IMG/VR virus record: IMGVR_UViG_3300035034_001062
Location: 1-50,845 of that record
Length of the DNA stretch: 50,845 nucleotides
Direction: 5' to 3' (one strand)
Source: a virus
The translations under genes and the position numbers were made by a program. Below the pieces are notes generated by a model. The model had not been told where the DNA came from. It saw only the letters and a program-made list of their open reading frames with translations, and made no database searches. Shown one piece after another: positions 10,726 to 38,414 of the stretch; position 1 is the stretch's first letter; each line of letters begins with the position of its first letter.

Positions 10726-11115
10726 TTATTCTTCTTTTTCGTTATTTGAGTCAGTTTCATTCTTTTTAATCATTTCTCTGATTGTTTTGAAATCATCAAA
10801 AGAGGCCGAACCTTGACTTCGCTCATTAACTGTTGTTTCAACATCACCACGATTTTTAATAATATCGCTTTGTAGTTTGGCAAGTTCCAATTTAATTCTA
10901 ATCGCTGAATCTTTAACTTTTAATAGATTACCTTTTTCTTTAGCAATCTTAGTTATATCATCAACATCCGTTGGTGTTGCACTTGAAGTCACTTCGTTGA
11001 TGGTCTTCTGAGCATCATTGATTTGTAAACAAGCATCATTATAAGTTTCTTGCATAAGACCTTGTAATGATTCCGAATTGTTTACTTTTACATCTTGTTT
11101 CTTTTTTCTTGGCAT
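10726..11115 (-). CDS. Small helical protein, unknown, first gene of the tail module
   Basis: This 129-residue protein has a basic start (MPRKKKQDVK), a long helical centre (about 15-90, with KIAKEKGNLLKVKDSAIRIK) and an acidic end. It could be a small DNA- or protein-binding factor: small terminase subunits and the T4 late co-activator gp33 are similar in size, but I see no motif for either. It begins the minus-strand tail module with a near-consensus late box 9 bases before the ATG, and lies 41 bases downstream of the late sigma gene. Confidence 0.7.
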   Translation of the reverse strand: MPRKKKQDVKVNNSESLQGLMQETYNDACLQINDAQKTINEVTSSATPTDVDDITKIAKEKGNLLKVKDSAIRIKLELAKLQSDIIKNRGDVETTVNERSQGSASFDDFKTIREMIKKNETDSNNEKEE

Positions 11116-11123
11116 ATCGATTG

Positions 11124-11137
11124 TTTTACTATAAATA
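11124..11137 (-). promoter_or_regulatory. Late-type promoter box (AAGG variant)
   Basis: On the minus strand TATTTATAGTAAAA, preceded by CAAGG, ends 8 bases before the ATG at 11115. It is one of the best matches to the extended consensus AAGG-TATTTATAnTAAAA and would drive the tail/baseplate module to 5339. Confidence 0.65.
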
Positions 11138-11155
11138 CCTTGAATTAAGGTTTTT

Positions 11156-12112
11156 CTATAAATCCTTTAATTTTAATAAATCATAAAGACCTTTAAAACG
11201 TTTCATTGCAACCCTAATATCTTTGGTTGATAAATTTGTGTAGTTTCTAATGGTTTCTAAAACTGAATTCTTATTATATTTTGACCCACCACTCATAGAT
11301 TCAAAAGCAGTTTCCCAATTTTCTAGAATCTCAAGTAAAACGTAACCTATTTTTCGTTCATTTTCATTAAGTTTCTTTTTAGGTGGTAAATCATCATCAT
11401 CTAACTCATCTTTAATACCATCTAATAGCTTTTTAATAAAGTCTTCCATAGTAGCATAATAATTATCAATATGATACGTTAAGTCTTCTCTTCCTTGAAT
11501 ATTAGAAGCTACATCTTCATAAGATGCTGTTTGTTTCATATATTTATCATCCTTTATTAGTAACCCTAAAATATAATTTTTAGATATTGTCCCAAAGTAT
11601 GAGTAAGCTTTTTTATTTCTACCAGGCTCAAATTTATGAGCCTTTGTCATCAAAAATGAGTAGGTATCTGTATGTAACTCTTCAAAAGTAAAACCTTTTC
11701 TATATAACTTATATTTTCTAATTATCGATTCAATCATTTTAGAGATTGGAGCATTTAACCATTTGGTAAATATTAAATCTCTATTGATGGTGTCAATAAC
11801 GATTACCGTAGCACCAGACACAGTTTCGTCTGGTGTTATAGTAACACAATTTTCTTCATAATCTTTAATATCTAAAGTTACATCTATCTCAAGTAGTTTA
11901 CTATCAGTACTGTATGCATTTAAATTTGGTGTAATGTATGATGCATCAATACTAATTTCTTTACCTAAGTTGTGATTTATTTTTAAGGGTTTATCCTTAA
12001 CTAAATCAATTATATGTATTTCTCTAAATTCTAAAAATTTAACAACGGCAGCTTCTTCATCTGGACCAAAATACATGTCGTTTTTTCTTTTTCGTCCTCG
12101 TTTAGCCACCAT
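11156..12112 (-). CDS. 55: Late-transcription sigma factor, T4 gp55-like, with an apparent inserted domain
   Basis: This 318-residue protein has features of phage late sigma factors related to sigma-70 region 2. These include an early DEEAAVVKFLEF segment (18-29), RDLIFTKWL and a KMIESIIRKYKLY helix (111-137), EELHTDTYSFLMTKAHKFEPG, and KKAYSYFGTISKNYILGLL (168-186), followed by KDDKYMKQTASYED. T4 gp55 is about 185 residues and directs host RNA polymerase to TATAAATA late promoters. About 75 residues (33-109) appear inserted between the first two segments. They look like a tail-fibre beta domain (LKINHNLGKEISID, then VTITPDETVSGATVIVID). The gene abuts a glycosyltransferase upstream without spacer. 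The sigma assignment is by pattern only; the C-terminal quarter is not typical. Confidence 0.68.
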   Translation of the reverse strand: MVAKRGRKRKNDMYFGPDEEAAVVKFLEFREIHIIDLVKDKPLKINHNLGKEISIDASYITPNLNAYSTDSKLLEIDVTLDIKDYEENCVTITPDETVSGATVIVIDTINRDLIFTKWLNAPISKMIESIIRKYKLYRKGFTFEELHTDTYSFLMTKAHKFEPGRNKKAYSYFGTISKNYILGLLIKDDKYMKQTASYEDVASNIQGREDLTYHIDNYYATMEDFIKKLLDGIKDELDDDDLPPKKKLNENERKIGYVLLEILENWETAFESMSGGSKYNKNSVLETIRNYTNLSTKDIRVAMKRFKGLYDLLKLKDL

Positions 12113-16046: not shown

Positions 16047-16442
16047 TTATTTTTCCTTTATTATATCTTTGAATTTATCATAATCTAATATGTAATCATC
16101 TATATCATACACAGTTGAACACACTACTAAAATTTCAGAATTATTAGATAAAAATTCTTGTGAATCCCAAACCATTTCTGGAACCATTATTGCTTCATGT
16201 TTAACTAATTTAATTATTTCTTTACTATCTATATAGTCTAGTATAACATTTACAGCACCATTGATACATATTATAAATTGTCTAGTTTTATAATGTGCAT
16301 GATTACCACGAATTGAATTTATTGGAACGTTATTGACTACAAATAATCTTTTGGGTTCGAAACCTATATTACTAAACTCTAGTGGTAATAGTGAACCTCT
16401 ATCGTCTTCGAATGATTTAATATTTATTACTTTCGATTTCAT
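16047..16442 (-). CDS. Cupin sugar 3,4-ketoisomerase (FdtA/WxcM type)
   Basis: This single-domain cupin has the FdtA family signature RGNHAHYK (45-52, His48 and His50 in the active site), preceded by FEDDRGSLLPLE and followed by QFIICINGAVNVILD and the late cupin strand EILVVCSTVYD. These enzymes move the keto group of a nucleotide-4-keto-6-deoxyhexose from C4 to C3. I chose the ATG at 16442 (131 residues). The upstream ATG at 16481 adds 13 residues absent from the family and overlaps the aminotransferase gene more. With the next two genes upstream it forms a dehydratase-aminotransferase-isomerase set. Confidence 0.85.
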   Translation of the reverse strand: MKSKVINIKSFEDDRGSLLPLEFSNIGFEPKRLFVVNNVPINSIRGNHAHYKTRQFIICINGAVNVILDYIDSKEIIKLVKHEAIMVPEMVWDSQEFLSNNSEILVVCSTVYDIDDYILDYDKFKDIIKEK

Positions 16443-17355
16443 TATACATATGTATTTGTTTAATAATATGTGATATTTCATTAATAGTCAATCCTTCATT
16501 AAAAGGAATTGATACTGTGGTTAAACTTTTAACTTCCGTTAATGGACAATTACTTCCATCAATCTTATATACATCATGTAAATGTGTTGCATCATAATGT
16601 ACACCACAACTAATACCCACATCTTTCATTTTACTTATAAATAAGGGTCTATCTTTAACATCTATTCTGTATAGATGATTACTAGTATTATCTAAATTAA
16701 ATGCTTCATTATAATAATTTCTAACTATTTTTAATGACGATAATTTATCTTTATACTTTGAAAAGTTTCTTAATGCTATATCAGCTTGCATACTATTCAT
16801 ATACATTTTATATCCAGCAAATTTTATTGTCCTTTCCCAGTTGTTATTGGAATAAGTCATACCATTTAATGCTAATTCTTTTAGTTTATTAATTTTTTCT
16901 AAATCATTTGAAACTATCATACCACCGTCACAACTTCCAACTGGTTTTGTTGGGTAAAAACTAAAAACCATTAAATCACCATCATTACATTCATTTATAA
17001 ATTGGTTATGTTCTAGTTTTTGTGCTGAATCGATGATTTTATAATCACCAAAGTCATGTAAGATATAAGAATCCCCAACCCAATCAACATCATCTCTAAA
17101 AATATATTTATTTCCAGATGTTAAAATAGCATTAGGGACCACTGGTGGTATCATACTTGGAATAGTTACTGTAATGTCTTTATCTAATAACGCTAAAAAA
17201 ATAGCACTAGTGGCACTATTAAATGTCACAGCGTATTTAGCACCCACATAATTGGCTATGGTATTTTCTAAATCAACAACTACATCACCATGTAATAGGT
17301 TTGTATGATTTGAAGTATCAATTATGTGTGACGGTATATGGAATAAGTTAATCAT
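16417..17355 (-). CDS. DegT/DnrJ/EryC1-type sugar aminotransferase
   Basis: This 312-residue PLP enzyme has NSATSA (46-51, phosphate binding), IIDSAQ (107-112, cofactor-ring aspartate Asp109), and FYPTKPVGSCDGG (133-145) with the Schiff-base lysine Lys137, then a conserved NYYNEAF segment. It would transfer an amino group to a keto-sugar nucleotide. It is shorter than typical members (about 370), mainly in the N-terminal part and the acceptor region. It overlaps the ketoisomerase gene by 26 bases and the dehydratase gene by 8. With a cupin 3,4-ketoisomerase next door, a 3-amino sugar product is the simplest reading. Confidence 0.9.
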   Translation of the reverse strand: MINLFHIPSHIIDTSNHTNLLHGDVVVDLENTIANYVGAKYAVTFNSATSAIFLALLDKDITVTIPSMIPPVVPNAILTSGNKYIFRDDVDWVGDSYILHDFGDYKIIDSAQKLEHNQFINECNDGDLMVFSFYPTKPVGSCDGGMIVSNDLEKINKLKELALNGMTYSNNNWERTIKFAGYKMYMNSMQADIALRNFSKYKDKLSSLKIVRNYYNEAFNLDNTSNHLYRIDVKDRPLFISKMKDVGISCGVHYDATHLHDVYKIDGSNCPLTEVKSLTTVSIPFNEGLTINEISHIIKQIHMYNEIESNKY

Positions 17356-18304
17356 TTTTGTTAATTTTACTAATTAGATTATCTATAACGTTATACACAT
17401 TATTTTTAGGTAACCACTTTAATTTTCTACCTAAAGTATCGTTAGATAATTTACTAATCTTTATGTCATTAGGTCTCTTAAGGTTATCATTAATTATTAA
17501 ATGTTCTTTATAATTTAACTCATATTTATTAAACACATAATCAACAAATTCTTCTAAACTTATTGACATACCAGTTGATATTATCATATCTTCTGGTTTT
17601 TCTTGTTGTAACATTAGGTGCATACCTTTTACATATTCTTCTGCACAGCCCCAATCTCGCATAATACTAATATCTCCTAATTCTAATATTTGTTCTAATC
17701 CCTTACTGATATTTTTAGCACTATTAACTATTTTCATAGTAACAAACCTTTTATTTCTTAGAAAGGATTCGTGATTACTTAAAATACCCGAACAAGTATA
17801 TATCCCGTATGTGTCTCTATAATTTGATGTTAACCAGTATGCTGATGTTTTTGCAACAGCATAAGGTGAAATTGGGTTAAATGGTGAATGTTCGTTTAAT
17901 ACAATGTCAGACCCACCATAACATTCAGAAGAACTAGGGTTAAATATTTTACAATTAAAGTCTAAATATTTTACAGATTCTAAAATATTTAAACAACCAT
18001 TAACTATACTTTCAAATGTTTCAAACGGTTGTAAATAAGAATAACCTACGGAGGTTTGACCAGCTAAATTATATATCTCATCTGGTTTTACCATACTAAT
18101 TACTTTAAGTACACTTCTAAAATCATTAAGTACCATGGTATATATTTTAACATCACTAAAAACACCCAATTGTTTTAAACCATTAAAATTAGTTATTTCG
18201 TGGTCTCTAGATGTACCGTATACCTCGTAACCATTATCTAATAGGTGTTTTGATAATAATGAACCATCTTGACCCGATATACCTATTATTAATGCTCTCT
18301 TCAT
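17348..18304 (-). CDS. gmd: GDP-mannose 4,6-dehydratase-like SDR
   Basis: This 318-residue extended SDR has the NAD(P) motif GISGQDG (8-14), the substrate signature NPSSSECYG (122-130), the catalytic Tyr148-xxx-Lys152 in SPYAVAK, and GILSNHESFLRNKRFVTMKI (173-192), a hallmark of GDP-mannose 4,6-dehydratase. It would make GDP-4-keto-6-deoxymannose from GDP-mannose. The length is slightly below typical (about 345-370). It overlaps the aminotransferase gene by 8 bases and its start overlaps the preceding glycosyltransferase stop by one base. Assignment to GDP-mannose rather than dTDP-glucose rests on the FVT and SNHE motif. Confidence 0.88.
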   Translation of the reverse strand: MKRALIIGISGQDGSLLSKHLLDNGYEVYGTSRDHEITNFNGLKQLGVFSDVKIYTMVLNDFRSVLKVISMVKPDEIYNLAGQTSVGYSYLQPFETFESIVNGCLNILESVKYLDFNCKIFNPSSSECYGGSDIVLNEHSPFNPISPYAVAKTSAYWLTSNYRDTYGIYTCSGILSNHESFLRNKRFVTMKIVNSAKNISKGLEQILELGDISIMRDWGCAEEYVKGMHLMLQQEKPEDMIISTGMSISLEEFVDYVFNKYELNYKEHLIINDNLKRPNDIKISKLSNDTLGRKLKWLPKNNVYNVIDNLISKINKND

Positions 18305-19236
18305 TATATTATAAATTTATCTTTTAATTTTAATTTCATTTTATTCTGCAATAAATTAAATTTACTACCTTCTTCTATATTATCATTTTTGTGTGATGAG
18401 TTATGCCAATGCCAAGAAAATGCGTTTTCGAATAATGAATCACTATATTCGTTTTTAATAAACCAACCACTTTCTGTTTTGGTACCAATACCAGCCGAAT
18501 CATATATTTTATTTTCACCATCCCAAATGGTATTCATTTGCCATTCAGTATTAAAAAATGTAGATGGGAATACAGTAAATCGTCTTATACGATATACCTT
18601 TGCCAATAGAACATGGTCTAAAACCGTGCTATCTGGAACTATTTTGGTTTTAACCATTTCCTCTAAACATAGTTTAGCGTGTTCACTTTCTTTTTTTAAA
18701 TTCATTATTGCCGCACATGGTCCAAAATTATAAAAATCAGTTTCTGAACCCCACATATAGGCCCATTCTTGGTCTAAAATAGGTTTAAAATTTCTTAATA
18801 AAACCATGTCCATATCTAACCAAATACCACCATAGTTGTGTGTAACTAAGAATCTTAATATACCACTTTTCATGTAGTGTTTGGTATCGTTGGCGTTTTC
18901 TAACTCTCCATTACCTTCAAGGATAGTACCTTTAGATTCATCATTAAAGTTATAAACTCGCATATCAATCAAATGTTTATAAGGTTTGATTAAATCAGTA
19001 TCTGTTATATCATAATCAGACCATAAAATCAATCTAGTTTTTTCTAAATCTTGAGTCGCTAAATAAGATTCTATACATAATAACTCTTTTTCTGTTTTTA
19101 TTTCAGAATAAACATGAAAATAAGTTATTTCTTTAGGGTATTCATGTTTCGTATCATCTATATTAGATAAAAACTCCAATCCTTTTTTATAATCTTGGAA
19201 TAATTCTAAATTATTCTCAATTGTAATATCTATCAT
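18304..19236 (-). CDS. Glycosyltransferase with DXD motif (GT32-like)
   Basis: This 310-residue protein has features of GT32/TcdA-like capsular glycosyltransferases: TRLILWSDYDI, a MKSGILRFLVTHNYGGIWLD stretch leading into the DMD metal site, VLLRNF, and a later HWHNSSHK near the end. Such GT-A enzymes usually transfer hexoses to glycans or proteins. The gene stop overlaps the dehydratase start by one base, so donor synthesis and transfer are directly linked here. Upstream is a 70-base AT-rich gap with a hairpin and a late-like box. Donor specificity cannot be told. Confidence 0.83.
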   Translation of the reverse strand: MIDITIENNLELFQDYKKGLEFLSNIDDTKHEYPKEITYFHVYSEIKTEKELLCIESYLATQDLEKTRLILWSDYDITDTDLIKPYKHLIDMRVYNFNDESKGTILEGNGELENANDTKHYMKSGILRFLVTHNYGGIWLDMDMVLLRNFKPILDQEWAYMWGSETDFYNFGPCAAIMNLKKESEHAKLCLEEMVKTKIVPDSTVLDHVLLAKVYRIRRFTVFPSTFFNTEWQMNTIWDGENKIYDSAGIGTKTESGWFIKNEYSDSLFENAFSWHWHNSSHKNDNIEEGSKFNLLQNKMKLKLKDKFII

Positions 19237-19272
19237 TTTAATTTATTATTATATTATTATTATTTACTAATA

Positions 19273-19301
19273 TACCTTAAATATTATTAATAATAAAGGT
19301 T
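19273..19301. repeat. Inverted repeat next to a late-like box
   Basis: In the gap before the GT32-like gene an ACCTT / AAGGT pair encloses the palindrome ATTATTAATAAT. On the minus strand it runs into AAGGTATATTAGTAAA, which resembles the AAGG-type late box for the gene starting at 19236. It may be a weak terminator or part of the promoter. Confidence 0.35.
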
Positions 19302-19306
19302 AATTA

Positions 19307-20077
19307 TTATTTAAGTTCAATATAACATATCCAAGTATAATCTTTTTTTTCTTCGAAAAATAAAGAATATTTATCTTCATCTTTAATTGAAAGTAATGGT
19401 TCTGGTGTAGGGTATTCATCGTCCCATTTATCACCCCATCTAGTTATATCACCTTTAAAAAGTGGTGGCATTTCTTGATAAATTGAAACGTTATTGTTAA
19501 AGTAATCTAAATCACCATCATTTTTATCATACCATGTTTTAGAACCAGCATTATCAATAACATATTTACAATTAGCAAGTATTTTTTTTGGTGTATAACA
19601 ATCACCTTGTTGATAAGGGTAGTTATCTTCAGTCATAATTTTTTTAAAACCAAGACTATGAGCATGTTTTAATCTTTCAAAGAAATTTTGGTGGTCATCG
19701 AAGAAAATCATAGTATCATCTTTAGGAAGATGTGACCAATCAGTTTTTAGAAAGTCTTCAGTTTGATAAGTTGAATTTGGACTAGTATAAACTCTAAATC
19801 TAGGTTCTGGGTCAATGGAAATTATTTTAGTATTTGGACTAGCTTTCTCAAAAAACCAAGTACCTAGACCTTTCCATACACCACTTTCAATTAAATATTT
19901 TGGTTTAAGTTGTCTAACAACAAACCAAGCTGGAAACATATGGGGAGATTTCATTCCACCATTATTATCTGTGATTGGTCTTGATTCATATAGAATTTTA
20001 AATTCCTCAATTGCAAGGTTTAATTCATCTCTACTCCATTTTTCTAAAAATTCTACACTCTTTTGTTCTTTTTCCAT
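19307..20077 (-). CDS. Methyltransferase-like protein (TylF/CmcI-type fold), possible
   Basis: This 256-residue protein has a Rossmann-type centre: PKYLIESGVWKGLGTWFFEK (about 59-78, glycine loop), KIISIDPEPRF (acidic end of strand 2), DDTMIFFDDHQNFFERLKHA (strand 4 with acidic motif), then GFKKIMTEDNY. This order fits class I SAM-dependent methyltransferases of the TylF/CmcI type, but the glycine loop is atypical. The tryptophan-rich C-terminus (about 185-256) is not recognised. It lies two bases after the second methyltransferase gene within the sugar cluster, so sugar or lipid modification is plausible. Confidence 0.6.
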   Translation of the reverse strand: MEKEQKSVEFLEKWSRDELNLAIEEFKILYESRPITDNNGGMKSPHMFPAWFVVRQLKPKYLIESGVWKGLGTWFFEKASPNTKIISIDPEPRFRVYTSPNSTYQTEDFLKTDWSHLPKDDTMIFFDDHQNFFERLKHAHSLGFKKIMTEDNYPYQQGDCYTPKKILANCKYVIDNAGSKTWYDKNDGDLDYFNNNVSIYQEMPPLFKGDITRWGDKWDDEYPTPEPLLSIKDEDKYSLFFEEKKDYTWICYIELK

Positions 20078-20079
20078 AA

Positions 20080-20679
20080 TTATTTTTTATTTAAATAAAA
20101 GTTATTTTCAATATTCGAAATATGATAACCATATTTCTCACATAAATTTAAAAAGTTTTGTTTATTATGATAATAAGCATATGTAGTTATTTCATCATAT
20201 GCTACATAAGTTTCATAATAACTTTTCTTCTCAGTTATTTTCATCCTAGCAATCAACACACTTTTTGGTGAGATGGATAAGATATGTTCTAACGCTTCAT
20301 CACCATTCGGTAATACATCTAATAAAGCACCTAAATGCAATAAATCAAAATCAGATATATACTCTTTAGTTAGTGATTTATAATCCATTACATCAAAGTT
20401 TTTATCACCCCACGTTTTTTTAGCTAATATAATAGCGTTATCAGAATAATCAAGTCCAAAATATTTCATATCTTTAAAATTATAACGACATAATTCAAAT
20501 ATTGCACCGCAACCACAACCAATATCTAAGATACTGTTTGGTTTGTTTGTGTTCAATAATTTAATAAATGATATCCAATGTGGTGGATATTTATCAATTG
20601 ATGATAATTCTAATAAATTTAACGCTAACTGTTTTGTAAAAACATTACTATTTTTCCAAGATTCATTTACATTGCTCAT
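20080..20679 (-). CDS. Class I SAM-dependent methyltransferase
   Basis: This 199-residue protein has motif I ILDIGCGCGAIFELC (about 50-64), motif II KYFGLDYSDNAIILAKK (acidic Asp binding the ribose), FDVMDY, and FDLLHLGALLDVLPNGDEAL (motif IV/post-I). It resembles small methyltransferases that modify sugars or small molecules. It overlaps the upstream glycosyltransferase gene by 17 bases and is two bases from the next methyltransferase-like gene. A likely role is to methylate a sugar made or transferred by the cluster; the substrate is not visible. Confidence 0.85.
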   Translation of the reverse strand: MSNVNESWKNSNVFTKQLALNLLELSSIDKYPPHWISFIKLLNTNKPNSILDIGCGCGAIFELCRYNFKDMKYFGLDYSDNAIILAKKTWGDKNFDVMDYKSLTKEYISDFDLLHLGALLDVLPNGDEALEHILSISPKSVLIARMKITEKKSYYETYVAYDEITTYAYYHNKQNFLNLCEKYGYHISNIENNFYLNKK

Positions 20680-21478
20680 ATACCATATTTATTAATACTT
20701 TCGCCCCACCTTGAAAGTGGAGAGAATTAAATTTTATTTCTTTTTGTAATCTGTTATTATAAACATATGCTAAACCATTTCGTATTTTATAGTTTTTATG
20801 ACCATTAATAAAATCAAACCCTTGGTCTGGAACATTTATGTTGTGGTCATATGTTGAATCGTTAATAATTTGCATCATCTCACCTACTTTACCAGGACCA
20901 CCACCACAATCAGAACAATAATGGAAAAATTCTAATAATGTCATATCACAAACACCACCACCTAAACCACAATCTTGTCTAACGTGAAAATGTGATGCTA
21001 TTTTCTTAAAATTGTAGGAATTTTTATCCTTATATGTATTCATTATTAACTTACATAGATTTCTTATTCCTTCTAATGTAATAAAAGAGGCAATCGCTGC
21101 TGTTCTATGTAATAGTGTCATATCATACTGATTAAATTTTATCCATTCTTCATTAACATCAACAAATAACATTACATCAGAATCTGTATAAAAAATTACA
21201 TCTAAAGAGTTTTTCTCCATATAATTTTTTAATATAAACCATCGTTGATAGCAGAATATCTCATAATCAACTGGTGTTGTATTTAAATGAACATAATTTT
21301 CTCTAAACTCATCACATTCGTTAAAATTATCACTAATTGATTCAAATTTAAACGTTGATGACTCTACTGGTGGTTTAGTATCACCAATAAGAATAACTTC
21401 ATTATTTTTATTTGCTTGTTTTAATGTACATCCTAAATAATCTTGATATCCTTTGTGTATAAAAACTACTGGTATCAT
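20663..21478 (-). CDS. Glycosyltransferase-like protein, GT-A fold
   Basis: This 271-residue protein has an N-terminal nucleotide-binding region (VVFIHKGYQDYLGCTLKQA, then NEVILIGDT) and a metal motif DSD in DVIFYTDSDVMLF (about 93-105). It has a cysteine- and glycine-rich loop near 178-196 (CSDCGGGPGKVG) and ends with a FHFQGG-like motif. The layout fits GT-A transferases of phage and capsule clusters. It overlaps both neighbours (4 and 17 bases), showing tight coupling. Substrate unknown. Confidence 0.75.
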   Translation of the reverse strand: MIPVVFIHKGYQDYLGCTLKQANKNNEVILIGDTKPPVESSTFKFESISDNFNECDEFRENYVHLNTTPVDYEIFCYQRWFILKNYMEKNSLDVIFYTDSDVMLFVDVNEEWIKFNQYDMTLLHRTAAIASFITLEGIRNLCKLIMNTYKDKNSYNFKKIASHFHVRQDCGLGGGVCDMTLLEFFHYCSDCGGGPGKVGEMMQIINDSTYDHNINVPDQGFDFINGHKNYKIRNGLAYVYNNRLQKEIKFNSLHFQGGAKVLINMVYEQCK

Positions 21479-22401
21479 ATTAAAGTTTTATAAATTTTTT
21501 CTTGAACACCTTTTAATGTAAACATTAATCTAGCATTTCTTATATTTGTTAACATTTCCTCTTGATTTACAGAATTAAGAAGTGTTATAATAAATTCACC
21601 ATCAGATGCTTTATCTTCTGGTATTCTAATAATTATTTTACTATAATCTATATCATTTTCGTATGGTAATATAACATTATCAGCAAATAATACTGGTATT
21701 GTATTAAGATGAAATGCTTCAAAAAATCTGTAAGAAGATAGACCTAAACCTTTAGGGCACAAGGTAAATAATGATGAACTAAGTGTTTTTCTATATTCAC
21801 TAAATTCTATTTTTTCTGATATTAAAATATTTGAATTGTCACCAAGAGATGTTTTTAAATTACGTCTAATATTATTATTGAATGCACAAACTAAATTAGC
21901 TAGATATTTTTTATTTTCATTTAATGGTCTATCATCTATCGTCCAGAATGGTAGTAATATATATCTATCATGTTTTTTATCTGTATTGAAATTTAACACA
22001 TATAAGTTTTCATATTCATCAATGAAGTTAAACACATTACTAGCATTAGTATCATGATTCCAAGTTACGATTACTTTATTATTTATATATTTTTTACAAT
22101 AATAATCACATACCATTTTAATATTTTCTCTTTGACCCCAGAATTCTAACAGTTCTAAGTAAAATCCAACAACAACTATTGTATCTGAATCTATATCATC
22201 TACTATATCAAATAAATCGAAGTTTTTATTTTCAGTATCATTACTTCTAACGTTTTCACAGAAAATATCAAAATTATCTAATATATCTTGTCTACCACCA
22301 TTTAAGTATTCTGATATATGAGCATCATTTGCTGTTATTTTAACATCATTAAATACTTGTTTATAATTTATTATATGTGTTTTAAGTTTATTTTTAACCA
22401 T
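21475..22401 (-). CDS. Exostosin-like glycosyltransferase (GT47-type)
   Basis: This 308-residue protein has the exostosin pattern in its C-terminal half: SLFTLCPKGLGLSSYRFFEA, then FHLNTIPVLFADNVILPYEN and IIIRIPED. The N-terminal half has the expected first Rossmann-like region (IVVVGFYLELLEFW, TWNHDTNASN). GT47-type enzymes in bacterial and phage clusters transfer sugars to polysaccharides. It overlaps the next gene by 4 bases and is one base from the previous one. No membrane anchor is present, so it acts in the cytoplasm. Substrate unknown. Confidence 0.8.
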   Translation of the reverse strand: MVKNKLKTHIINYKQVFNDVKITANDAHISEYLNGGRQDILDNFDIFCENVRSNDTENKNFDLFDIVDDIDSDTIVVVGFYLELLEFWGQRENIKMVCDYYCKKYINNKVIVTWNHDTNASNVFNFIDEYENLYVLNFNTDKKHDRYILLPFWTIDDRPLNENKKYLANLVCAFNNNIRRNLKTSLGDNSNILISEKIEFSEYRKTLSSSLFTLCPKGLGLSSYRFFEAFHLNTIPVLFADNVILPYENDIDYSKIIIRIPEDKASDGEFIITLLNSVNQEEMLTNIRNARLMFTLKGVQEKIYKTLI

Positions 22402-22402
22402 A

Positions 22403-23278
22403 TTATAAATATTTAGTTAGTTGTGTATTAAAATTATCTTTTAACATATACAAATCACGTTCTATAGATTCTGGATGAACCCATTTAAATGGTGCTGTTC
22501 TACAAGCACCTCGTATATTAGGTTTAAATTCATGAACACCATTCCATTCCTCTTCTATTTTGTCTCTTTCTCCAAGTACCCAAGGTAAATATATTTTATT
22601 AAAATAATCATCAATACAATTTTGTTTAGAGACACTATCTTTATAGTAGTTTACTTTTTTAAAAACTTGGTCTGGGAAAGTGTACGAATAATGATACATT
22701 TGAACACCTAATTTATCCCACAATGAATTACTATCTATGTGTTTTCTAACGATATTAGAACCAGATGGGTATTTTATTGTTGGTGGTCGATGTGTTTCCC
22801 AAGTAGAACCTTTAGTGTATCTAAATATACGTAAAAAATTATCACGATTTAACTCAAAACCAGTTAAATAATCATCAAAACCACCATAGAATGAACAACT
22901 TCTAACACCTACACTAGTAGGTTTCTCATCTTCTAGATATTTTACCATATTTTGAAGGTCGTTAGTTCTATATACTTCATCTGAATCTAGATTCCATATA
23001 TAATCTATATCATCATTTATATTTTCCATATATGCTTTACATTGGTCATCCTTTTCATTGAATTGGCCATGTACTATTTTAATCTTATTTTCTGGGTCTG
23101 GAAATTCATCAAGTATTTTATTTGTATTATCTAATGATGTTGTTCTACCTTGTTTTTGCCAGTATGAAACTGGACCTTCAGCAATTAGTATTTGTTCAGC
23201 AAATGGATATACTTGCTCCAAACATTGTTTAAGGACGTAATCACCTTCAAATACTATCATTCCAAATGCTATTTTCAT
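22403..23278 (-). CDS. Glycosyltransferase, GT-A (family 2-related)
   Basis: This 291-residue protein starts KIAFGMIVFEGDYVLKQCLE, followed by ILIAEGPVSYW, and has a DSD metal site in YIWNLDSDEVYRTNDL (about 95-110). Next come an acceptor-region RSCSFYGGFDDYLTGFELN and a MYHYSYTFPDQV stretch common in this type. It is compact with no transmembrane segment. A 4-base overlap with the upstream gene and a one-base gap downstream place it in the same operon. Donor and acceptor are unknown. Confidence 0.82.
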   Translation of the reverse strand: MKIAFGMIVFEGDYVLKQCLEQVYPFAEQILIAEGPVSYWQKQGRTTSLDNTNKILDEFPDPENKIKIVHGQFNEKDDQCKAYMENINDDIDYIWNLDSDEVYRTNDLQNMVKYLEDEKPTSVGVRSCSFYGGFDDYLTGFELNRDNFLRIFRYTKGSTWETHRPPTIKYPSGSNIVRKHIDSNSLWDKLGVQMYHYSYTFPDQVFKKVNYYKDSVSKQNCIDDYFNKIYLPWVLGERDKIEEEWNGVHEFKPNIRGACRTAPFKWVHPESIERDLYMLKDNFNTQLTKYL

Positions 23279-24135
23279 ATTTTTATTTTTTCTTTAATCT
23301 TAACTAATTCATAATGATATTCATCGTAAATAGCTTTTAATTCTTTATTGTTATTATATTCTGTTAGTGGGGTATAAATATGATGCATCGTTGATGGGAT
23401 ATAAGAATCTCCATTATCAACGAATTGTGAGAAATGAGTAAATACCAATTCTTGTTCTTCACCTTCAAATTTTATTTTATTATTACCTAATAATTCTAAC
23501 GTTTGCCAATGCCATGGGGCTCCATGACCTATATTTTTATCTATATATATTTGTTCTGGTGTACATACTGTTGTGAAATATTCTAAATACTTTTGGTCAC
23601 CACATGTGGCGTATTCTGGGTGTCTTTTATTCAACACTGAATTAGCCCACCAATCACATAATCCTTTACCAATATCTATATCTTTAAAGTGAACTATACC
23701 TACATTATATAACCCTTCTGGTCTAGTTGATGATAAAGGGAATTGTCTATGTCTAAACATACCAATCTCTCTATCACCTATCTCATTTAAAATCATATCA
23801 AAGCTTGTGTGAAGATATATATCTGAATCAATGTATGTAACTTCTTTAATGTCATTTATTAATAATTTACTTAAAAAATATGAAGCTAATGACCAACAAA
23901 AATATTTATATTCATTATCTCTTAAATTTTTAAGTTTTGGGTCATTATTTGTGAATGAATCAACATTATAAATAATTAAAGAATCACATTCATGTTTTTT
24001 AAGTTCAACATATGACTCGTTATCAATACATAGATAATGTAATACTATATCATCAGTGTGTCTAATTAATGATTCATATAGAACTAAACCTTTAGTAAGG
24101 TAATTTATATCCGATACAGTACAAACATGTTTCAT
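23275..24135 (-). CDS. Glycosyltransferase, GT8-like
   Basis: This 286-residue protein starts HVCTVSDINYLTKGLVLYES, a typical GT8-like opening, and has a DSD metal site in VTYIDSDIYLHTSFD (about 98-112). The later YNVGIVHFKD and CGDQKYLEYF stretches (about 142-185) match acceptor and donor loops. Such retaining transferases use UDP-sugars in most known cases. The gene overlaps both neighbours by 4 bases (ATGA type). Specificity is unknown. Confidence 0.85.
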   Translation of the reverse strand: MKHVCTVSDINYLTKGLVLYESLIRHTDDIVLHYLCIDNESYVELKKHECDSLIIYNVDSFTNNDPKLKNLRDNEYKYFCWSLASYFLSKLLINDIKEVTYIDSDIYLHTSFDMILNEIGDREIGMFRHRQFPLSSTRPEGLYNVGIVHFKDIDIGKGLCDWWANSVLNKRHPEYATCGDQKYLEYFTTVCTPEQIYIDKNIGHGAPWHWQTLELLGNNKIKFEGEEQELVFTHFSQFVDNGDSYIPSTMHHIYTPLTEYNNNKELKAIYDEYHYELVKIKEKIKI

Positions 24136-24791
24136 ATACCAAAATTAATAAGTTTTCTATTATTGTAAAGTGTCCTATCGTGGTTCTCATGCTTTGAGTT
24201 AAGTCCATGAATAGTATCTCTGTTTCCATGTCCCCAATCTGGATGTTCATGTTTAATTATTACGTTGTTAATATAAGTTTGTTTTTTCAACATATTGGCA
24301 ACATCCATAAATTCGTTATCGCACCAAACTGAAATATATTCTGGATTATAAATATAGTTAAACCTATCGTAATATTTTTTACCTAAAATTGATAAAGTAT
24401 TTAATTTATTACCTTGGTAACCATCGTTAAACCACAATACACCATCTGTATCTGGATATAATTCTAACATTTTTCCTTTAATGATAGTATCGTAACCTTT
24501 AACTTGTGGAATCATATCATCGGAAGCTAATAATAGTATATCAAAATCAACACCTTCTAAATCTGCATTTACCGCAGCAATTTTTGATTTATTATCGGTG
24601 AAATTTAATGTAACAGTATCATACGCTGAAATAATTTCTTTTATCTCATCATTATTCATTGTTTCATCATCAATATCACAACTAACAATTATTCTAGTAT
24701 TTTTATCATCTAGTTTAGATATATACTTATTTAACACCGTTAAAAATTTATGTGGTCTATTCCTAGTTGGAAATTTAATTACTAAATTCAT
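24132..24791 (-). CDS. Small glycosyltransferase-like protein (family 2 type)
   Basis: This 219-residue protein starts NLVIKFPTRNRPHKFLTVLN, a family 2-like opening, then has RIIVSCDIDDETM and ILLLASDDMIPQVKGYD (metal-site equivalent about 90-100). It lacks the longer C-terminal part of full family 2 enzymes, so it may be a minimal transferase. It overlaps the GT8-like gene by 4 bases and starts 3 bases after the stop of the preceding unknown gene. The fold is likely; activity is not proven. Confidence 0.75.
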   Translation of the reverse strand: MNLVIKFPTRNRPHKFLTVLNKYISKLDDKNTRIIVSCDIDDETMNNDEIKEIISAYDTVTLNFTDNKSKIAAVNADLEGVDFDILLLASDDMIPQVKGYDTIIKGKMLELYPDTDGVLWFNDGYQGNKLNTLSILGKKYYDRFNYIYNPEYISVWCDNEFMDVANMLKKQTYINNVIIKHEHPDWGHGNRDTIHGLNSKHENHDRTLYNNRKLINFGI

Positions 24792-24794
24792 TTA

Positions 24795-25742
24795 TTATTT
24801 TTTTTCTTTATTGTTATATTTTTCATCTAAATTGGTTTGACGAAAACCTTCTATAATATCTAAACCATCAATGATAATGTTAGCGGTGAATTTAATAACA
24901 TAATGACCATTAAACTCAACAATTTTATCAAATTTAATATTTTCATATTGATACTCTAAGAAATCATTAGCACCCATAGTCTTATACGTAACAAAATTAA
25001 CTTTAGAAAATGTTAACATATCTATTTTACTTGGGTCAACAATAGCTTTCTTAACCTCACTAATGAAGAGTCTAGATGTTCTATTGTATTCATCTGGATA
25101 CACACTAACATAAAACTCTAAAAGTCTCTCAGAATCGTTTATTTTACGTATGTTTAATTTTTTAGTATATGTTTCTATTTCAAATTTTGGTATGAAATCT
25201 CTACCAATAATTATTGGTTTCTCAGTTTTATTGGTTGCGAAAAATTCATTTGAACTAATTTCACCATGACTAACAACATCTTCACCTTCTTCATTTTGTT
25301 TTTTATCTACTTCATCAAATATACTAATATATTCATTATCCATAGCACCATTACCACTAGTTACAATTTCAGAATTATCTAAAACTATCTCTAAAGGATA
25401 TGAATCTTCATTATCAACCTTAACTTTAGATAGTCCAGCTTTTTTTGTTCTTTTAATTGTTTTAACTATTGGCATATTGTTTTCATCATATCCAGTAATT
25501 TCCGAAGACATACTCTCAGTTTCTCTAAGTACTTTATAAGTTCTCCAACGCATATCTAAAACTTCTTGAGTGATTTCACCTTGTTTTAAAGAGTCAGCTA
25601 AAGTGCCTTGATTATTTCGTTTAACTTTAATTGTTACTGCTTGAGTGGAATCACCTAATTGTGAAAGTGAATTTTTTTCAACACTAGCCATTGCTAGTGA
25701 AATTATTGCCATTTTTTTATTTAACCAACTTTTTAAACTCAT
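24795..25742 (-). CDS. Unknown phage protein, 315 residues, possibly virion-associated
   Basis: The protein begins MSLKSWLNKKMAIISLAMAS, an amphipathic or hydrophobic helical start, then has a charged low-complexity centre (about 85-165) and a beta-rich C-terminal domain (about 170-300, with FIPKFEIETYTKKLNIR and GHYVIKFTANIIIDG). No enzyme motif is seen. The start resembles that of uncharacterised proteins of large phages in my recollection, but I cannot name a family. It lies within the sugar cluster, overlapping the fused glycosyltransferase stop by one base, yet does not look like a sugar enzyme. Confidence 0.7.
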   Translation of the reverse strand: MSLKSWLNKKMAIISLAMASVEKNSLSQLGDSTQAVTIKVKRNNQGTLADSLKQGEITQEVLDMRWRTYKVLRETESMSSEITGYDENNMPIVKTIKRTKKAGLSKVKVDNEDSYPLEIVLDNSEIVTSGNGAMDNEYISIFDEVDKKQNEEGEDVVSHGEISSNEFFATNKTEKPIIIGRDFIPKFEIETYTKKLNIRKINDSERLLEFYVSVYPDEYNRTSRLFISEVKKAIVDPSKIDMLTFSKVNFVTYKTMGANDFLEYQYENIKFDKIVEFNGHYVIKFTANIIIDGLDIIEGFRQTNLDEKYNNKEKK

Positions 25743-27409
25743 TACTCAATTATTAATTTATATTGTTCTATTATTTCTTTAACGATATTACCACTTTTAA
25801 ATTTATCAATATCTAAAGGTATTTCATGTAAATCTTTAGATAAAATATTACCATAAGAATCTACATCATAAATCCAACCTTGTTTACCACACATCCATCC
25901 TTCGATAGTTGTTCTACCTAGTAATATACCAGCAGTCTCATCACATTGTTGAATATACTTTTCAACATTTGGTGTTGGTTCGTGATATTTAACATGGTCT
26001 TGACCTTCAATCATTTCATCTAAATAAGTTTCATTTTTCTTACCAACAATCCATAATTCATTACCTTCTTTTTTAGTAACGGTTATTAGTTCTTGAATCG
26101 TTTGTTTTCTTAGGTAATCTATAGTACCTACAAATAATATACGTTTACCACCTTTTCTAGGTGGTGTAATAACTGGTTTAAATTTTTCAGCATCTATTGG
26201 ATTATAAATAACTGAAACATCATCTGATTCCACACCGAATTTGTTGACAATGTATTCCTTAATTTCTGGACGTATTGCTATATATTTCTTTATTTGTGTT
26301 GATAAGACTGGTTCTTCTAGACTAATAACTTCAGAATGTATAGAAGAAATCATTGGTGTATCTGGGAACATCCTTAAAAGATGGTCGGTAACTGGTTTAT
26401 GATTCACATGTATTACATCGAAATCTGTATTATCTATTTTATAAAGTGAACCTTCTTGAGTAACTACTGGACCTTGAGGAGTATTTATGCTAGTCTTACC
26501 ATCACCTAACTTATAACTAGGTGGTTCTTGTAGTGAATACATTTTAACACCTAATTTATGTGCAGCTGATAGTAATGGTTCGCCAATATTTGAGCATATA
26601 CTAACATTACAATTATCTTTAATTAATTGTTTAGCTAATTCGAATACGTATAGTTCAGAACCAGTATAATTAGCGAAACTTAAACATCCAATAAGTACAT
26701 TTAATTTTTCACCTTTACGTAATTCTCTTTTTATAGATACTGGTAATTTATCTTTAAATGTTTCAGCAAATTGAACTCTATTGATTTCCCACTGTTCATT
26801 TGTCATACCGATAGATTGATGATTGATTCTAATGGAGGTGATAACACCTATTTTAACATCCTTAATATAGTTTTCAAAACAAAATGTTACATCATAGAAA
26901 TGAAAACCTTTAACATCTTTATTGAACTCAGTTTTAATTTTAGTTTTATCAACAGCAAAGAAAAGTCCATCAACAACCACGGTTTCCTCAACAGATTGAC
27001 CTAAATCATCTGAATAAGAAGATAACCAAGTTTTACCTTCGTGTGTATGAGCAACACGCCCATACATTTTCTTAGGTTTTGACCACCACTGACCAGTTTC
27101 AGCCATATATTTAGTACCAGCAACACCTAAGATACCATATTGAGGATTCTTCTCAAATGTTTTAAGTAATTTCTTACCCCATTGTTTAGTTTCAACAGTT
27201 AGGTCATGATGTAAAAAAACTACAATATCGTGTTTAGCCTCAGATAACCCTTTATTATATATTTCAGTTAACGAAAATTCACCATTATTTTCATACCCTA
27301 AAAATTCTATTTTATTATATAGACCAGAAGTTTTTTTTATATGTTCTTCATATGTTTTCAAATCGTATTGTGATGAACAAACAACACTTATACCTCTTAC
27401 TGTAACCAT
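25742..27409 (-). CDS. Two-domain glycosyltransferase (GT2-like + GT4-like fusion)
   Basis: This 555-residue protein has two transferase modules. Residues 1-230 form a GT-A-like domain with HDIVVFLHHDLTVE and VVVDGLFFAVDKTKI. Residues 235-555 form a GT-B domain with FANYTGSELYVFELAKQL, a helix-rich linker, ILFVGTIDYLRKQTIQELI and the donor-loop TTIEGWMCGKQGWIYDVD. The second domain lacks the usual EAxAxGxP signature; GWMCGKQG stands in its place. Two domains in one chain could build a repeating disaccharide. It is 8 bases from the dUTPase gene and overlaps the next gene by one base. Confidence 0.82.
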   Translation of the reverse strand: MVTVRGISVVCSSQYDLKTYEEHIKKTSGLYNKIEFLGYENNGEFSLTEIYNKGLSEAKHDIVVFLHHDLTVETKQWGKKLLKTFEKNPQYGILGVAGTKYMAETGQWWSKPKKMYGRVAHTHEGKTWLSSYSDDLGQSVEETVVVDGLFFAVDKTKIKTEFNKDVKGFHFYDVTFCFENYIKDVKIGVITSIRINHQSIGMTNEQWEINRVQFAETFKDKLPVSIKRELRKGEKLNVLIGCLSFANYTGSELYVFELAKQLIKDNCNVSICSNIGEPLLSAAHKLGVKMYSLQEPPSYKLGDGKTSINTPQGPVVTQEGSLYKIDNTDFDVIHVNHKPVTDHLLRMFPDTPMISSIHSEVISLEEPVLSTQIKKYIAIRPEIKEYIVNKFGVESDDVSVIYNPIDAEKFKPVITPPRKGGKRILFVGTIDYLRKQTIQELITVTKKEGNELWIVGKKNETYLDEMIEGQDHVKYHEPTPNVEKYIQQCDETAGILLGRTTIEGWMCGKQGWIYDVDSYGNILSKDLHEIPLDIDKFKSGNIVKEIIEQYKLIIE

Positions 27410-32584: not shown

Positions 32585-35263
32585 ATGGCTTTTAAGACAA
32601 AATTAGACTATTCAAGCAATAGACAAATAAAACAATATCCAGAAACTGTTACAGTTTTATCTGGTGCAACATCATTTGGTGTTGTTTTTAGTGCATTAAC
32701 AACGGGTCCAGATTTAACTACTACTGCCGTTACGGAAAACTATACATTAATAGCTAGTACTTTTTCTGGTAATAGTGCAACAACTGTATATGACTGGTAT
32801 GATGATAGAATGGAGTTAGGTGCTTCTGGATTATCAGCGATAACACCTTCAACATCTGCATCAACACAATCAACAACAGAATTTACTGGTTCATCATCAA
32901 CAATAATTGATGGTAATATGGTTAATTTAACATATAGTGGTGTTAGTTTTGACTTAGGATTGGTTAGTATGGTTGATTTAGGTAGTGGTACTTATAGTGG
33001 TACCGTATCTACGAGTAATTTAGATATTTTAACTGCTTCAACGTTAGATTTTACTGGTAGAACAATATGGAATGACGTTTATGGAATAACTAGAACTAAA
33101 AGGCTTATAATAACTGATACACCAGTTAGTGGTTATGTATGGACATGTATTGATTCTGAAGGTATGGGTGAATGGCAATATAACGGTTCATCATCTGGTA
33201 CTACATCTTTTTGGGAAGAAGGTGGTTCTGGTGATACAGCACTTAAGGATAATAAGGGTTTACATACTTTAAGTGGTGTATCGACCAATTCAATTATTGT
33301 TGGTGGTGATGATAATATTTTAGGAAATAGTAGATATACTGCTATATTGGGTGGTTTATCTAATATTTGTAATAATAATCATTACTCGTTATTAAGTGGT
33401 TTGGGAAATGAATTCTCGACTGAGGGTCAATCAAATCTATTGATAGGTGGAAAAGATAATATTATGGGTGTATTAGTTCCAGGTTTTAGTGCACCAGTAC
33501 TATATTCTTCTATTATAGGTGGTAGAGATAATTTTACGAATGATAACGTATTTCATGGGTCTATAATTGGTGGTCAGAGTAATTCAATACTTAAATACAG
33601 TAGAAACTCAGCAATACTTGGTGGTCAAGGAAATACTGTTAATGGTGTTGCTTGGAGAAGTGTGGTCTTGGGTGGACAGAATATAACTGGAACAACACCA
33701 GATACAGTATATGTACCAAATTTAATTATCAATACTGGTGGAACTGTTAGTAAATTAGGTATTAACACTAGTAATCCCCAATATACGATAGATGCTAAGG
33801 CTACAGATAGTAATTTATTTTTTGAAAATAGTGGTTCTGGTGCTAGATTGACATTATCTGGTTCTAGTGATTTACCTATATTTTTAATTTCTACTGGTGT
33901 TGGTGGTGTTGGTACTGGTGTTGGTGGTAGTGTTGGTGTTAGAGCTTGGGATGATACGACTTACTCACCGTATGGTAGTCCAGGTGATATGCATATTTAT
34001 GCTGGTATAAATGCTAATGGTTTAAATCTAATTTCTGCTGATGGTTCTGGTGGTGGTGCTGCCGACTATGTAAGAATATATGCTGGTAGAAGTGCTAATA
34101 TGGGTGGTGATGCTGATTTACATATCGGTGGTACTGGTTCGACTAAGGGTTATCTTGGTTTAAACAATGAAAATCCTCAAAATAGAATCGATGCTAAGGG
34201 CTCTTTTGGTAGATTTCAAACAAAGTTAGATAGTTCAAATGTATCTGCTAGTATTTCTGGTAAAACTACCGATTTTGTTTTCTTAGAAGCTTCAACAGTA
34301 GATACTAGTTTAATAAGGGTTGGTGTTAGGCCAAGTGGTGATACAACTAATGATGCTTATGGTAAGAAGAACGATACGTTTATTTATTCATCAATATCTA
34401 ACAATGGTTTAAATTTAATTTCTGCTGATGGTACTGGTACTGAAGATTATATTAGATTTTATGCTGGTATGAATGCTGATGATGGTACATCTAATTTACA
34501 TATTCATGGTACTGGTTCGACTAAGGGATATGTAGGATTAAATAATGAAGAACCAACTGAAAGACTTGATGTGGGTGGTAATGCTAGGGTTAGGGGTGTT
34601 GGGTCCTCTGCATCTGCTGGTGCATTACATTACACAGCTGATGGTACACTTACAACTAATACTTCAGATGAAAGGTTAAAAATTAATATAACATCATTAA
34701 CTGGTGCTTTGGATAAGGTTAATCAGTTAAGGGGTGTTAGATATAATTGGTTGGAATCTCCAAGCGGTGATACACGTATAGGTTTTATTGCTCAAGAAGT
34801 TGAGAGTATAGTACCAGAATTAACTTTTACTAATAAAAATAGTGAAGAAAAATATATGGGTGTTCATTATGATAATGTTACAGCACTTTTAGTTGAAGCT
34901 GTTAAAGAATTGTCTAGTGGTGTCACAACGAATACCAACACTCATTTGGAGACTCAAACAATATTGGCTGAGGATAATAATATTGATTTAAACTACAATG
35001 GTACAAAAGAATCAGCATTGGGTGGTGGTCTTACAGTATTAAATGCTAAAGGTGAAAATGAATCAGCTGAATTAACAACGGACGAAAACGGTGATTGGGT
35101 GACCAATAACGATTTTAAATCTAAATCATTAACAATTCCTTTGTATACACCAACATCAACTAATGATTCAAATGGTAGTGAGGGTAATATAACGAGAGAT
35201 GAAGATTACATGTATATTAAAACTACAAGTGGTTGGAAAAGAACTAATTTAGAGAACTTCTAA
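32585..35263 (+). CDS. Tail fibre with YadA-like head repeats and S74 chaperone domain
   Basis: This 892-residue, glycine/serine/threonine-rich fibre has four recognisable parts. An N-terminal attachment region is followed by repeats of the IIGGxxN/ILGGxxN type at about 228-375, like YadA-head folds. Two similar beta segments follow, each with DGTGTxxxxxRFYAG-type sequence. A C-terminal intramolecular chaperone (peptidase S74, endosialidase type) begins TSDERLKINI at 693. Ser694 and Asp695 are the expected self-cleavage dyad, and YNWLESPSGDTRIGFIAQEV and PEL follow. S74 domains usually end the chain, but about 110 residues follow here, ending YIKTTSGWKRTNLENF. It starts behind a perfect late box and overlaps the next gene by one base. 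Confidence 0.88.
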   Translation: MAFKTKLDYSSNRQIKQYPETVTVLSGATSFGVVFSALTTGPDLTTTAVTENYTLIASTFSGNSATTVYDWYDDRMELGASGLSAITPSTSASTQSTTEFTGSSSTIIDGNMVNLTYSGVSFDLGLVSMVDLGSGTYSGTVSTSNLDILTASTLDFTGRTIWNDVYGITRTKRLIITDTPVSGYVWTCIDSEGMGEWQYNGSSSGTTSFWEEGGSGDTALKDNKGLHTLSGVSTNSIIVGGDDNILGNSRYTAILGGLSNICNNNHYSLLSGLGNEFSTEGQSNLLIGGKDNIMGVLVPGFSAPVLYSSIIGGRDNFTNDNVFHGSIIGGQSNSILKYSRNSAILGGQGNTVNGVAWRSVVLGGQNITGTTPDTVYVPNLIINTGGTVSKLGINTSNPQYTIDAKATDSNLFFENSGSGARLTLSGSSDLPIFLISTGVGGVGTGVGGSVGVRAWDDTTYSPYGSPGDMHIYAGINANGLNLISADGSGGGAADYVRIYAGRSANMGGDADLHIGGTGSTKGYLGLNNENPQNRIDAKGSFGRFQTKLDSSNVSASISGKTTDFVFLEASTVDTSLIRVGVRPSGDTTNDAYGKKNDTFIYSSISNNGLNLISADGTGTEDYIRFYAGMNADDGTSNLHIHGTGSTKGYVGLNNEEPTERLDVGGNARVRGVGSSASAGALHYTADGTLTTNTSDERLKINITSLTGALDKVNQLRGVRYNWLESPSGDTRIGFIAQEVESIVPELTFTNKNSEEKYMGVHYDNVTALLVEAVKELSSGVTTNTNTHLETQTILAEDNNIDLNYNGTKESALGGGLTVLNAKGENESAELTTDENGDWVTNNDFKSKSLTIPLYTPTSTNDSNGSEGNITRDEDYMYIKTTSGWKRTNLENF

Positions 35264-37022: not shown

Positions 37023-38414
37023 ATGAATAATTTTTTAAATTTAAGAACTGTTAATAGCCAATATGGTGATGTGACTAAAGGGAGTGTTTTAAGTCAAGCT
37101 GATGTTGATAATAATTTTTTATTTTTAAAGGGTATAAACATATCCACTGCTACAACTGTTGGTACTGATTTAGTTTTAAGTAAGATAAATGGTGAAAATA
37201 TTAATATAGATTTATCAGACTTTAGTGGTTCTTCTACTTCCGAATCTTATTGGATAAGTGGTTCTAGTGGTAATTATTCAGTTAAAACAATAAACGATTC
37301 AAGTATAGATGCTACTGGTAATTATTCTCACGCACAAGGAAATGGAACTACAGCTAGTGGTCAATATTCTCACGCAGAAGGTAATAGTACAGAATCTGGA
37401 GGTGACTCATCCCATGCAGAAGGTATGATTACGTACGCTGGAGGTGAAGCATCACATTCTGAAGGTAATAGTACAGAATCTGGAGGTGAAGCATCACATT
37501 CTGAAGGATATTATACGTCAGCTAGTGGTGATTATTCACATGCAGAAGGTTCTAGTACTTTAGCAAGTGGATTAGCTTCACATGCAGAAGGGTTTAACAC
37601 AGTCGCTAGTGGTCAAACATCTCACGCTGAGGGTAATTTGAGTGTTGCTGGTGGTACTGATAGTCACGCTGAGGGTCAAAATTCAAAAGCTATTGGAAAT
37701 ACATCACACGCTGAAGGTCAAAATTCAATCGCTAGTGGTACAACATCCCACGCTCAAAATAGAGGTAATATAGCATCTGGTAGTTATTCACACGCTGGTG
37801 GGGATGATTCTGAAGCACGTGGTATAACATCATTTATACATTCAACTAATTCGTTAGTTACTGGTGCTAGAAGTGTTGTATTAGGTGGAGAGAATATAAC
37901 TGGTTCAACAGATGATACGGTATATGTACCTAATTTAAATATAGAAACTATTGGTAGTGGTACTAGTGTCACTAATCTAGGTGTTGATTCGTCTGGTAAC
38001 GTTGTTTCTGGTACTACTGGTGGTGGTGGTGGAGGTAACGCTACCGTTGATAACTTTTATTATCAAGTTAGTAATAGTGTTGATACAAGACCAGTGTTCA
38101 CCGATGGAAACGTAACAATTGGATGGGAGGAAACTGGAAATGATTTAGAATTTACAATGGATGTTGCACCACTTGGTTCTGGTGATATGAGGTCGTTATC
38201 TTACAAGGTTGGTGGAAGTACTGAGAATGTATATATTACAACTGTTAGTAATATATATGATTTACACGGAGCTGGTGTTGCTGCTGGTGATAGATTAGAG
38301 GCATTTATAACAGCTGAAAATGATGAAACGTATCCAGCATATAAGATAACTGTCTATAATACTGGTGAAAGTTCATTGGTTTCAATATGGATTGAAAGGA
38401 TTACTAAAAACTAA
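37023..38414 (+). CDS. Tail fibre with twelve SHAEG (YadA-head-like) repeats
   Basis: This 463-residue protein has three parts. An N-terminal attachment region (1-100) precedes twelve 14-residue repeats (101-268) of the form SHAEGxxTxASGxY, the left-handed parallel beta-roll motif of YadA-type trimeric adhesins. These lead into SVVLGGENITG with DTVYVPNLNI, a poly-glycine hinge (near 335-340), and a C-terminal domain of about 120 residues of unknown fold. The protein should be a trimeric fibre shaft with a tip. The VVLGG-NITG module is shared with the S74 fibre upstream. It is driven by its own perfect late box. Confidence 0.85.
   Translation: MNNFLNLRTVNSQYGDVTKGSVLSQADVDNNFLFLKGINISTATTVGTDLVLSKINGENINIDLSDFSGSSTSESYWISGSSGNYSVKTINDSSIDATGNYSHAQGNGTTASGQYSHAEGNSTESGGDSSHAEGMITYAGGEASHSEGNSTESGGEASHSEGYYTSASGDYSHAEGSSTLASGLASHAEGFNTVASGQTSHAEGNLSVAGGTDSHAEGQNSKAIGNTSHAEGQNSIASGTTSHAQNRGNIASGSYSHAGGDDSEARGITSFIHSTNSLVTGARSVVLGGENITGSTDDTVYVPNLNIETIGSGTSVTNLGVDSSGNVVSGTTGGGGGGNATVDNFYYQVSNSVDTRPVFTDGNVTIGWEETGNDLEFTMDVAPLGSGDMRSLSYKVGGSTENVYITTVSNIYDLHGAGVAAGDRLEAFITAENDETYPAYKITVYNTGESSLVSIWIERITKN
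37323..37826 (+). repeat. Twelve 42-bp tandem repeats coding for SHAEG units
   Basis: Each 42-bp unit codes for 14 residues with a conserved TC-A-CA-GC-GAAGG core. Two stretches near 37377 and 37460 are identical over about 29 bases. The repeats keep the reading frame and could expand or contract by recombination, altering fibre length. Confidence 0.85.

Follow-up and report, generated by a model that had tools for sequence, protein, structure and literature searches.

The window analysed here, a 50,845-nucleotide stretch of viral DNA (positions 1–50,845 of IMG/VR virus record IMGVR_UViG_3300035034_001062), encodes a gp55-like phage sigma factor, a protein that directs the RNA polymerase of the host to its start sites, whose gene (11156–12112, minus strand; an ORF with an ATG start, 318 aa) is interrupted by an insert of 76 residues. 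The insertion is confirmed by comparison with related phages, and structure prediction together with structural alignment supports a location between sigma regions 1.2 and 2.1, i.e. at the position of the nonconserved region (NCR) of sigma70. We take the insert to be most likely an outward-facing accessory module acting on RNA polymerase or on a partner, a reading to which we give about an even chance; the main rival is that it is a tolerated passenger.

Identity of the sigma factor

That the protein is a gp55-like phage sigma, as the earlier note had read it, is borne out by Pfam Sigma70_r2, PHROG 234 and structural matches, and the profile check that the note had suggested found that the whole protein matches sigma families and not a non-sigma family. 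Sigma70_r2, with its cut-off at 24 bits, matches the window protein below that value (19.1 bits) and L006, a relative without the insert, barely above it (24.1 bits). Of 46 members of the sigma family, 27 match the late sigma profile PHROG 234 with E values no higher than 1, the best being 2.9e-5; the window protein does not match it. In structural alignments the model of the window sigma matches sigma70, sigmaS, sigmaE and WhiG. Residues 1–28 (12029–12112, minus strand) form a basic N-terminus plus a predicted helix (17–28) that AlphaFold2 and structural alignment place with sigma region 1.2, and residues 105–318 (11159–11800, minus strand) comprise sigma region 2 (about 108–190) and a helical C-terminal part, as indicated by Pfam, AlphaFold2 and structural alignment.

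The T4-type late sigma gp55 (PHROG 234) and the window's family are both sigma region 2 proteins from large tailed phages, but T4 gp55 is shorter, at 185 aa, and lacks an insert of this kind, whereas the window's family has about 240 aa and a longer C-terminal part. The distance to T4 gp55 is too great for the two to be compared clearly as a pair (hhalign of the family alignment against T4 gp55 alone: 72 columns, probability 1.5%). A C-terminal motif that binds the sliding clamp is a feature of T4 gp55 (PMC7892883); the suggestion that the insert itself contacts the sliding clamp or DNA found no support in this analysis.

An in-frame insertion in orthologous genes

Scanning viral contigs with the window sigma gave 66 related loci. 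The 318-residue version occurs on five contigs including the window (the others being L002, L003, L004 and L005), and these hold only three distinct insert-bearing sequences: the L004 protein is identical to that of the window, those of L002 and L003 are identical to each other and 92% identical to it, and that of L005 is 59% identical. Nearly all insert-free relatives are about 240–243 aa long, and in the two short ones, L064 (231 aa) and L067 (only 113 aa), the N-terminus is uninterrupted. Where the insert-free loci read FLE-STDETE-RNLIF (FLESTDETERNLIF), the carriers read FLE, then the 76 residues, then NRDLIF. The spacing from YFG to KMIESII is accordingly 35 residues in 63 of 63 distinct insert-free sequences and 111 in 3 of 3 distinct carriers, with nothing between. 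The net length of 76 aa corresponds to 228 bases, a multiple of three, and to residues 29–104 (11801–12028, minus strand). The L005 insert has the same size and place despite the 59% protein identity, and contigs from four further metagenome accessions also contain the insert, which for practical purposes excludes a misassembly. The proposal of a true insertion thus stands, given the empty site in relatives, with the boundaries moved a few residues upstream from the 33–109 first given; in the alignment with sigma genes of related phages the region is absent from most homologues, contrary to the note's refuting case of full-length homologues that all contain it as an integral part of a known domain. 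The base composition of the insert is not distinct from its surroundings, and Rfam gave no credible match within it.

The carriers and the insert-free loci have the same neighbours. Across 25 loci the order is PhoH, two small genes, two glycosyltransferase-type genes, sigma and five following genes, collinear as far as the contigs reach, and because this order is kept with and without the insert we regard the sigmas as one orthologous gene. More distant relatives lack the insert as well: the sigmas of Flavobacterium phage immuto and Microcystis phage Mel-JY01 align with hhalign probabilities of 99 and 98 and leave the insert columns unmatched, and the sigma matches in 80 immuto-like loci are of insert-free length. 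The insert is therefore a derived gain, not an ancestral part lost elsewhere. Around the sigma gene some local variation was seen, with a gap after it of about 250 bases in L002 (5957–6209) versus about 40 in the window. Elsewhere in the window there is a long run of sugar genes (16417–27409, minus strand; a DegT aminotransferase, a GDP-mannose dehydratase and several glycosyltransferase-like ORFs, assigned partly by reading) and a family B DNA polymerase gene (39503–44368, plus strand) with an intein, carrying splicing and LAGLIDADG domains, at residues of about 695–994.

A single origin of the insert is compatible with the data, not proven. The first core tree found, computed with the insert left out, does not join the carriers, which lie on long branches; constraining them to one group gives a tree of slightly higher likelihood, which the AU test does not reject (p 0.61). 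Shared rare residues were rejected as evidence for a common origin, as the carriers share 5 and unrelated long-branch rows share 4. The window and the records of 28 relatives were searched for a further copy or a donor of the insert, and bacterial genomes for a donor, and none was found.

Selection on the insert

The insert is under purifying selection as a protein, less strictly than the core. Between the window and L002 it shows 14 nonsynonymous and 15 synonymous changes (14/29), giving a dN/dS of 0.21 and a binomial P of 2.5e-4 against the neutral expectation; between the window and L005 dN/dS is 0.28 (P 0.006), with synonymous sites near saturation (dS about 1.9). The corresponding values for the sigma core are 0.10 and 0.14. 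Selection at the amino-acid level argues against removal or skipping of the 228 bases at the level of RNA or translation, by a small intron or a bypass that would leave the mature sigma without the insert. The empty site is exact and in-frame, as such an element would leave it, but the length is a multiple of three and no Rfam element was detected, and we consider this explanation very improbable.

The same comparisons bear on the possibility that recombination placed a promiscuous phage domain in a permissive surface loop, where it was kept only because its folding does no harm, without a role in transcription. In its favour, dN is higher in the insert than in the core (0.079 versus 0.029 for L002, 0.52 versus 0.25 for L005), the insert is rare, its carriers have long branches in the core tree, and its net charge is not conserved, being −7 in the window and −4 and +2 in the other two distinct sequences. 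Set against this, length and place have been kept in two lineages between which synonymous sites are saturated, and 228 useless bases would be expected to decay or vanish rather than to remain under purifying selection. We regard a tolerated passenger as a serious possibility that falls clearly short of even. With these charges and an identity of 38% between the inserts of the window and L005, no conserved contact surface is evident from the sequences, which argues against a finely tuned surface and keeps the passenger reading close behind that of an accessory module.

Predicted structure and place within the sigma factor

The full protein was modelled with AlphaFold2 from a 46-sequence alignment (mean pLDDT 71.8, pTM 0.44). 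In agreement with the expectation of a separate beta unit, the model has helix 17–28, strands within 30–107, helix 108–133 and then the remainder of sigma region 2; most strands of the insert have a pLDDT of about 65–77, and residues 58–76 are under 50. Folded alone, the insert reached a pLDDT of 45, i.e. low confidence, and VIA-align with this insert-only model gave a best Z of 4.2, with all rows under Z 5 and fibre and tailspike domains among them. Foldseek with the full model returned nothing with E below 0.001 against PDB and BFVD; some BFVD rows of about 75–86 columns may correspond to the insert domain, the output giving no indication of the aligned part.

VIA-align placed residues 12–188 of the model on 108–446 of the E. 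coli sigma70 chain 7mki_L (98 aligned residues, 3.1 A), a range that spans the NCR at residues 128–372 (PMC7822876), and residues 11–189 on 71–167 of P. aeruginosa sigmaS 7f0r_F, which is a continuous stretch of sigmaS. From the aligned ranges we infer that helix 12–28 pairs with region 1.2 and residues 108–188 with regions 2.1–2.4, skipping both the insert and the NCR. Prediction and alignment together thus support a beta unit whose ends adjoin the two flanking sigma helices and which occupies the place of the sigma70 NCR.

Some primary sigmas carry an insert between regions 1.2 and 2.1, varying in length and composition and involved in core contact and promoter escape. The NCR of sigma70 and of some other group 1 sigmas shares its position with the insert described here and differs from it in other respects, being 245 residues long in E. 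coli as against 76 residues of predicted beta strands, and without sequence relation; the phage sigma would appear to have gained its insert independently. The E. coli NCR is mainly helical. It is described in the literature as contacting beta' and affecting promoter escape, and it is because the module occupies this place that we propose an accessory-surface role for it.

Likeness to phage fibre domains

The insert had been likened to the HNLG-type beta domains found at the ends of phage fibres. It reads IHIIDLVKDKPLKINHNLGKEISI...YEENCVTITPDETVSGATVIVI in the window, where a short strand leads into the HNLG motif as PLKINHNLGK; the L005 counterpart is PITIKHNLGK. HNLG-type domains were recovered from fibres and other phage proteins, e.g. 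TPVTITHNLNTEDVIVQLKDSTGKL...YTNNSVDIQVSNTDTYKVII in L128. With the HNLG or HNLN terminal domains of fibre and other virion proteins (L128, L138, L131; PHROGs 30556, 34633, 16122 and 2647) the insert shares an early IxHNLG, an NxVxI strand further on and an end resembling SGxVxV; it differs in lying inside a transcription factor, in its longer middle and in having no PHROG or Pfam match.

An HNLG HMM scored the three inserts above all 900 shuffles, and a profile–profile comparison of the insert with HNLG domains gave a probability of 63% (P 7e-5, 51 columns) and a score of 28.1, versus a maximum of 17.6 among 300 column shuffles. Masking the HNL motif lowers the score to 13.8, a value reached or exceeded in 5 of 200 shuffles, so that the likeness rests mostly on the motif. 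The fibre-like character is therefore suggestive: the motif and the profile match above all 300 shuffles speak for it, and the match becomes weak under masking. The profile search for fibre domains did not bear it out, as the insert alone is unmatched in Pfam and PHROGs; in tblastn against phage records the window insert had no match and the L005 insert only chance-level ones. Sequence matches in PDB to CpcN and to a designed SH3-like binder had low domain scores and were judged to be chance. Overall, the sequence features make kinship with HNLG-type phage domains plausible and, in our estimation, rather probable.

The PHROGs matched by generic HNLG consensus probes (typed, not taken from a record) carry the annotations head, tail and unknown, and one is named HNH endonuclease, which makes this a promiscuous domain that apparently also occurs outside virions. 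PHROG 24148, annotated as HNH endonuclease, has an HNLG-like C-terminal part and may be a precedent for such a module outside virion proteins. The occurrence of HNLG-like domains in that family counts against a further explanation, in which the beta module, much as its fibre relatives attach to virion parts, would tie the sigma to the virion or an intermediate of its assembly, so that the sigma is either packaged and delivered or sequestered. The insert does resemble virion domains and the sigma gene adjoins baseplate genes, but the insert-free gene does so too, and we think a virion tether unlikely.

A possible donor pool is represented by the fibre relative L138 (L138:1–1695), which is 47% identical to the window fibre (37023–38414, plus strand) over 267 alignment columns of repeats and neck. 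The window fibre has YadA-head-like repeats and a GSxTSVTNLG neck in common with L138; the latter ends in an HNLN domain and the window fibre does not. Judging from the shared repeats and neck and the differing ends, fibre tips seem to be swapped in this phage group. A second, large fibre-like protein of the window (32585–35263, plus strand) has a Peptidase_S74 (endosialidase-type) chaperone domain at residues 694–746 followed by about 145 residues, and hence not in terminal position.

A candidate late promoter common to both forms

Close upstream of many gene starts in the window lies an oriented AT-rich motif, TATTTATANTAAA, with 7 exact cases versus 0.25 expected (e.g. upstream of 37023+, 32585+, 45548−, 15982− and 11115−); in 213 kb of insert-free relatives it occurs 22 times versus 1.0 expected. 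By its sequence and placement it is a candidate late promoter of this phage group, and presumably the one used by the window sigma. Of other promoter types tried, the T4 late motif TATAAATA shows no more than mild enrichment and a Bacteroidetes-type promoter shows none. The gene next to sigma (10726–11115) is preceded by a candidate late promoter, GTATTTATAGTAAAAC (11123–11138, minus strand), common to insert-free relatives, and upstream of its orthologues the window and several of these relatives have GGTATTTATAGTAAAAC.

Since carriers and insert-free relatives have the same candidate motif, the insert has probably left promoter recognition as it was, provided that the motif is indeed the sigma's promoter. 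This weighs against the idea that the insert alters promoter choice through DNA contact or a changed region 2, which its position next to region 2 might suggest; the window insert is also acidic, and we see little likelihood in this idea. An unchanged motif is equally what a passenger would leave.

Proposed role of the insert

In the accessory-module reading, one in-frame beta module of 76 residues, probably of the HNLG type known from the ends of fibre and other virion proteins, would have been inserted in the loop between the 1.2-like helix and the first helix of region 2, as the comparison of carriers with empty sites supports. Its first and last strands are predicted to run directly from and to the flanking sigma helices, so that it would fold outward and leave the part that reads the −10 element undisturbed. 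The sigma, still strongly selected, would probably keep the same AT-rich late promoters, and the module would likely serve as an accessory contact surface, either for RNA polymerase close to the beta' clamp or for a partner from phage or host, through which promoter opening or escape may be tuned.

More broadly, a phage late sigma may have acquired, independently, a regulatory module resembling the NCR, its source being a beta domain of the virion type captured between regions 1.2 and 2.1, a real possibility to which we would give a little less than even; no report of an insert of this kind in a phage sigma was found in the open-access literature. A compact phage sigma carries an unrelated-looking module at the place of the NCR, and close relatives without it share the gene, its neighbours and its candidate promoters. 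This natural pair would make the effect of an NCR-type insert on initiation testable by a clean comparison and, if the kinship with HNLG domains is confirmed, the reach of phage fibre domains would extend into the transcription machinery.
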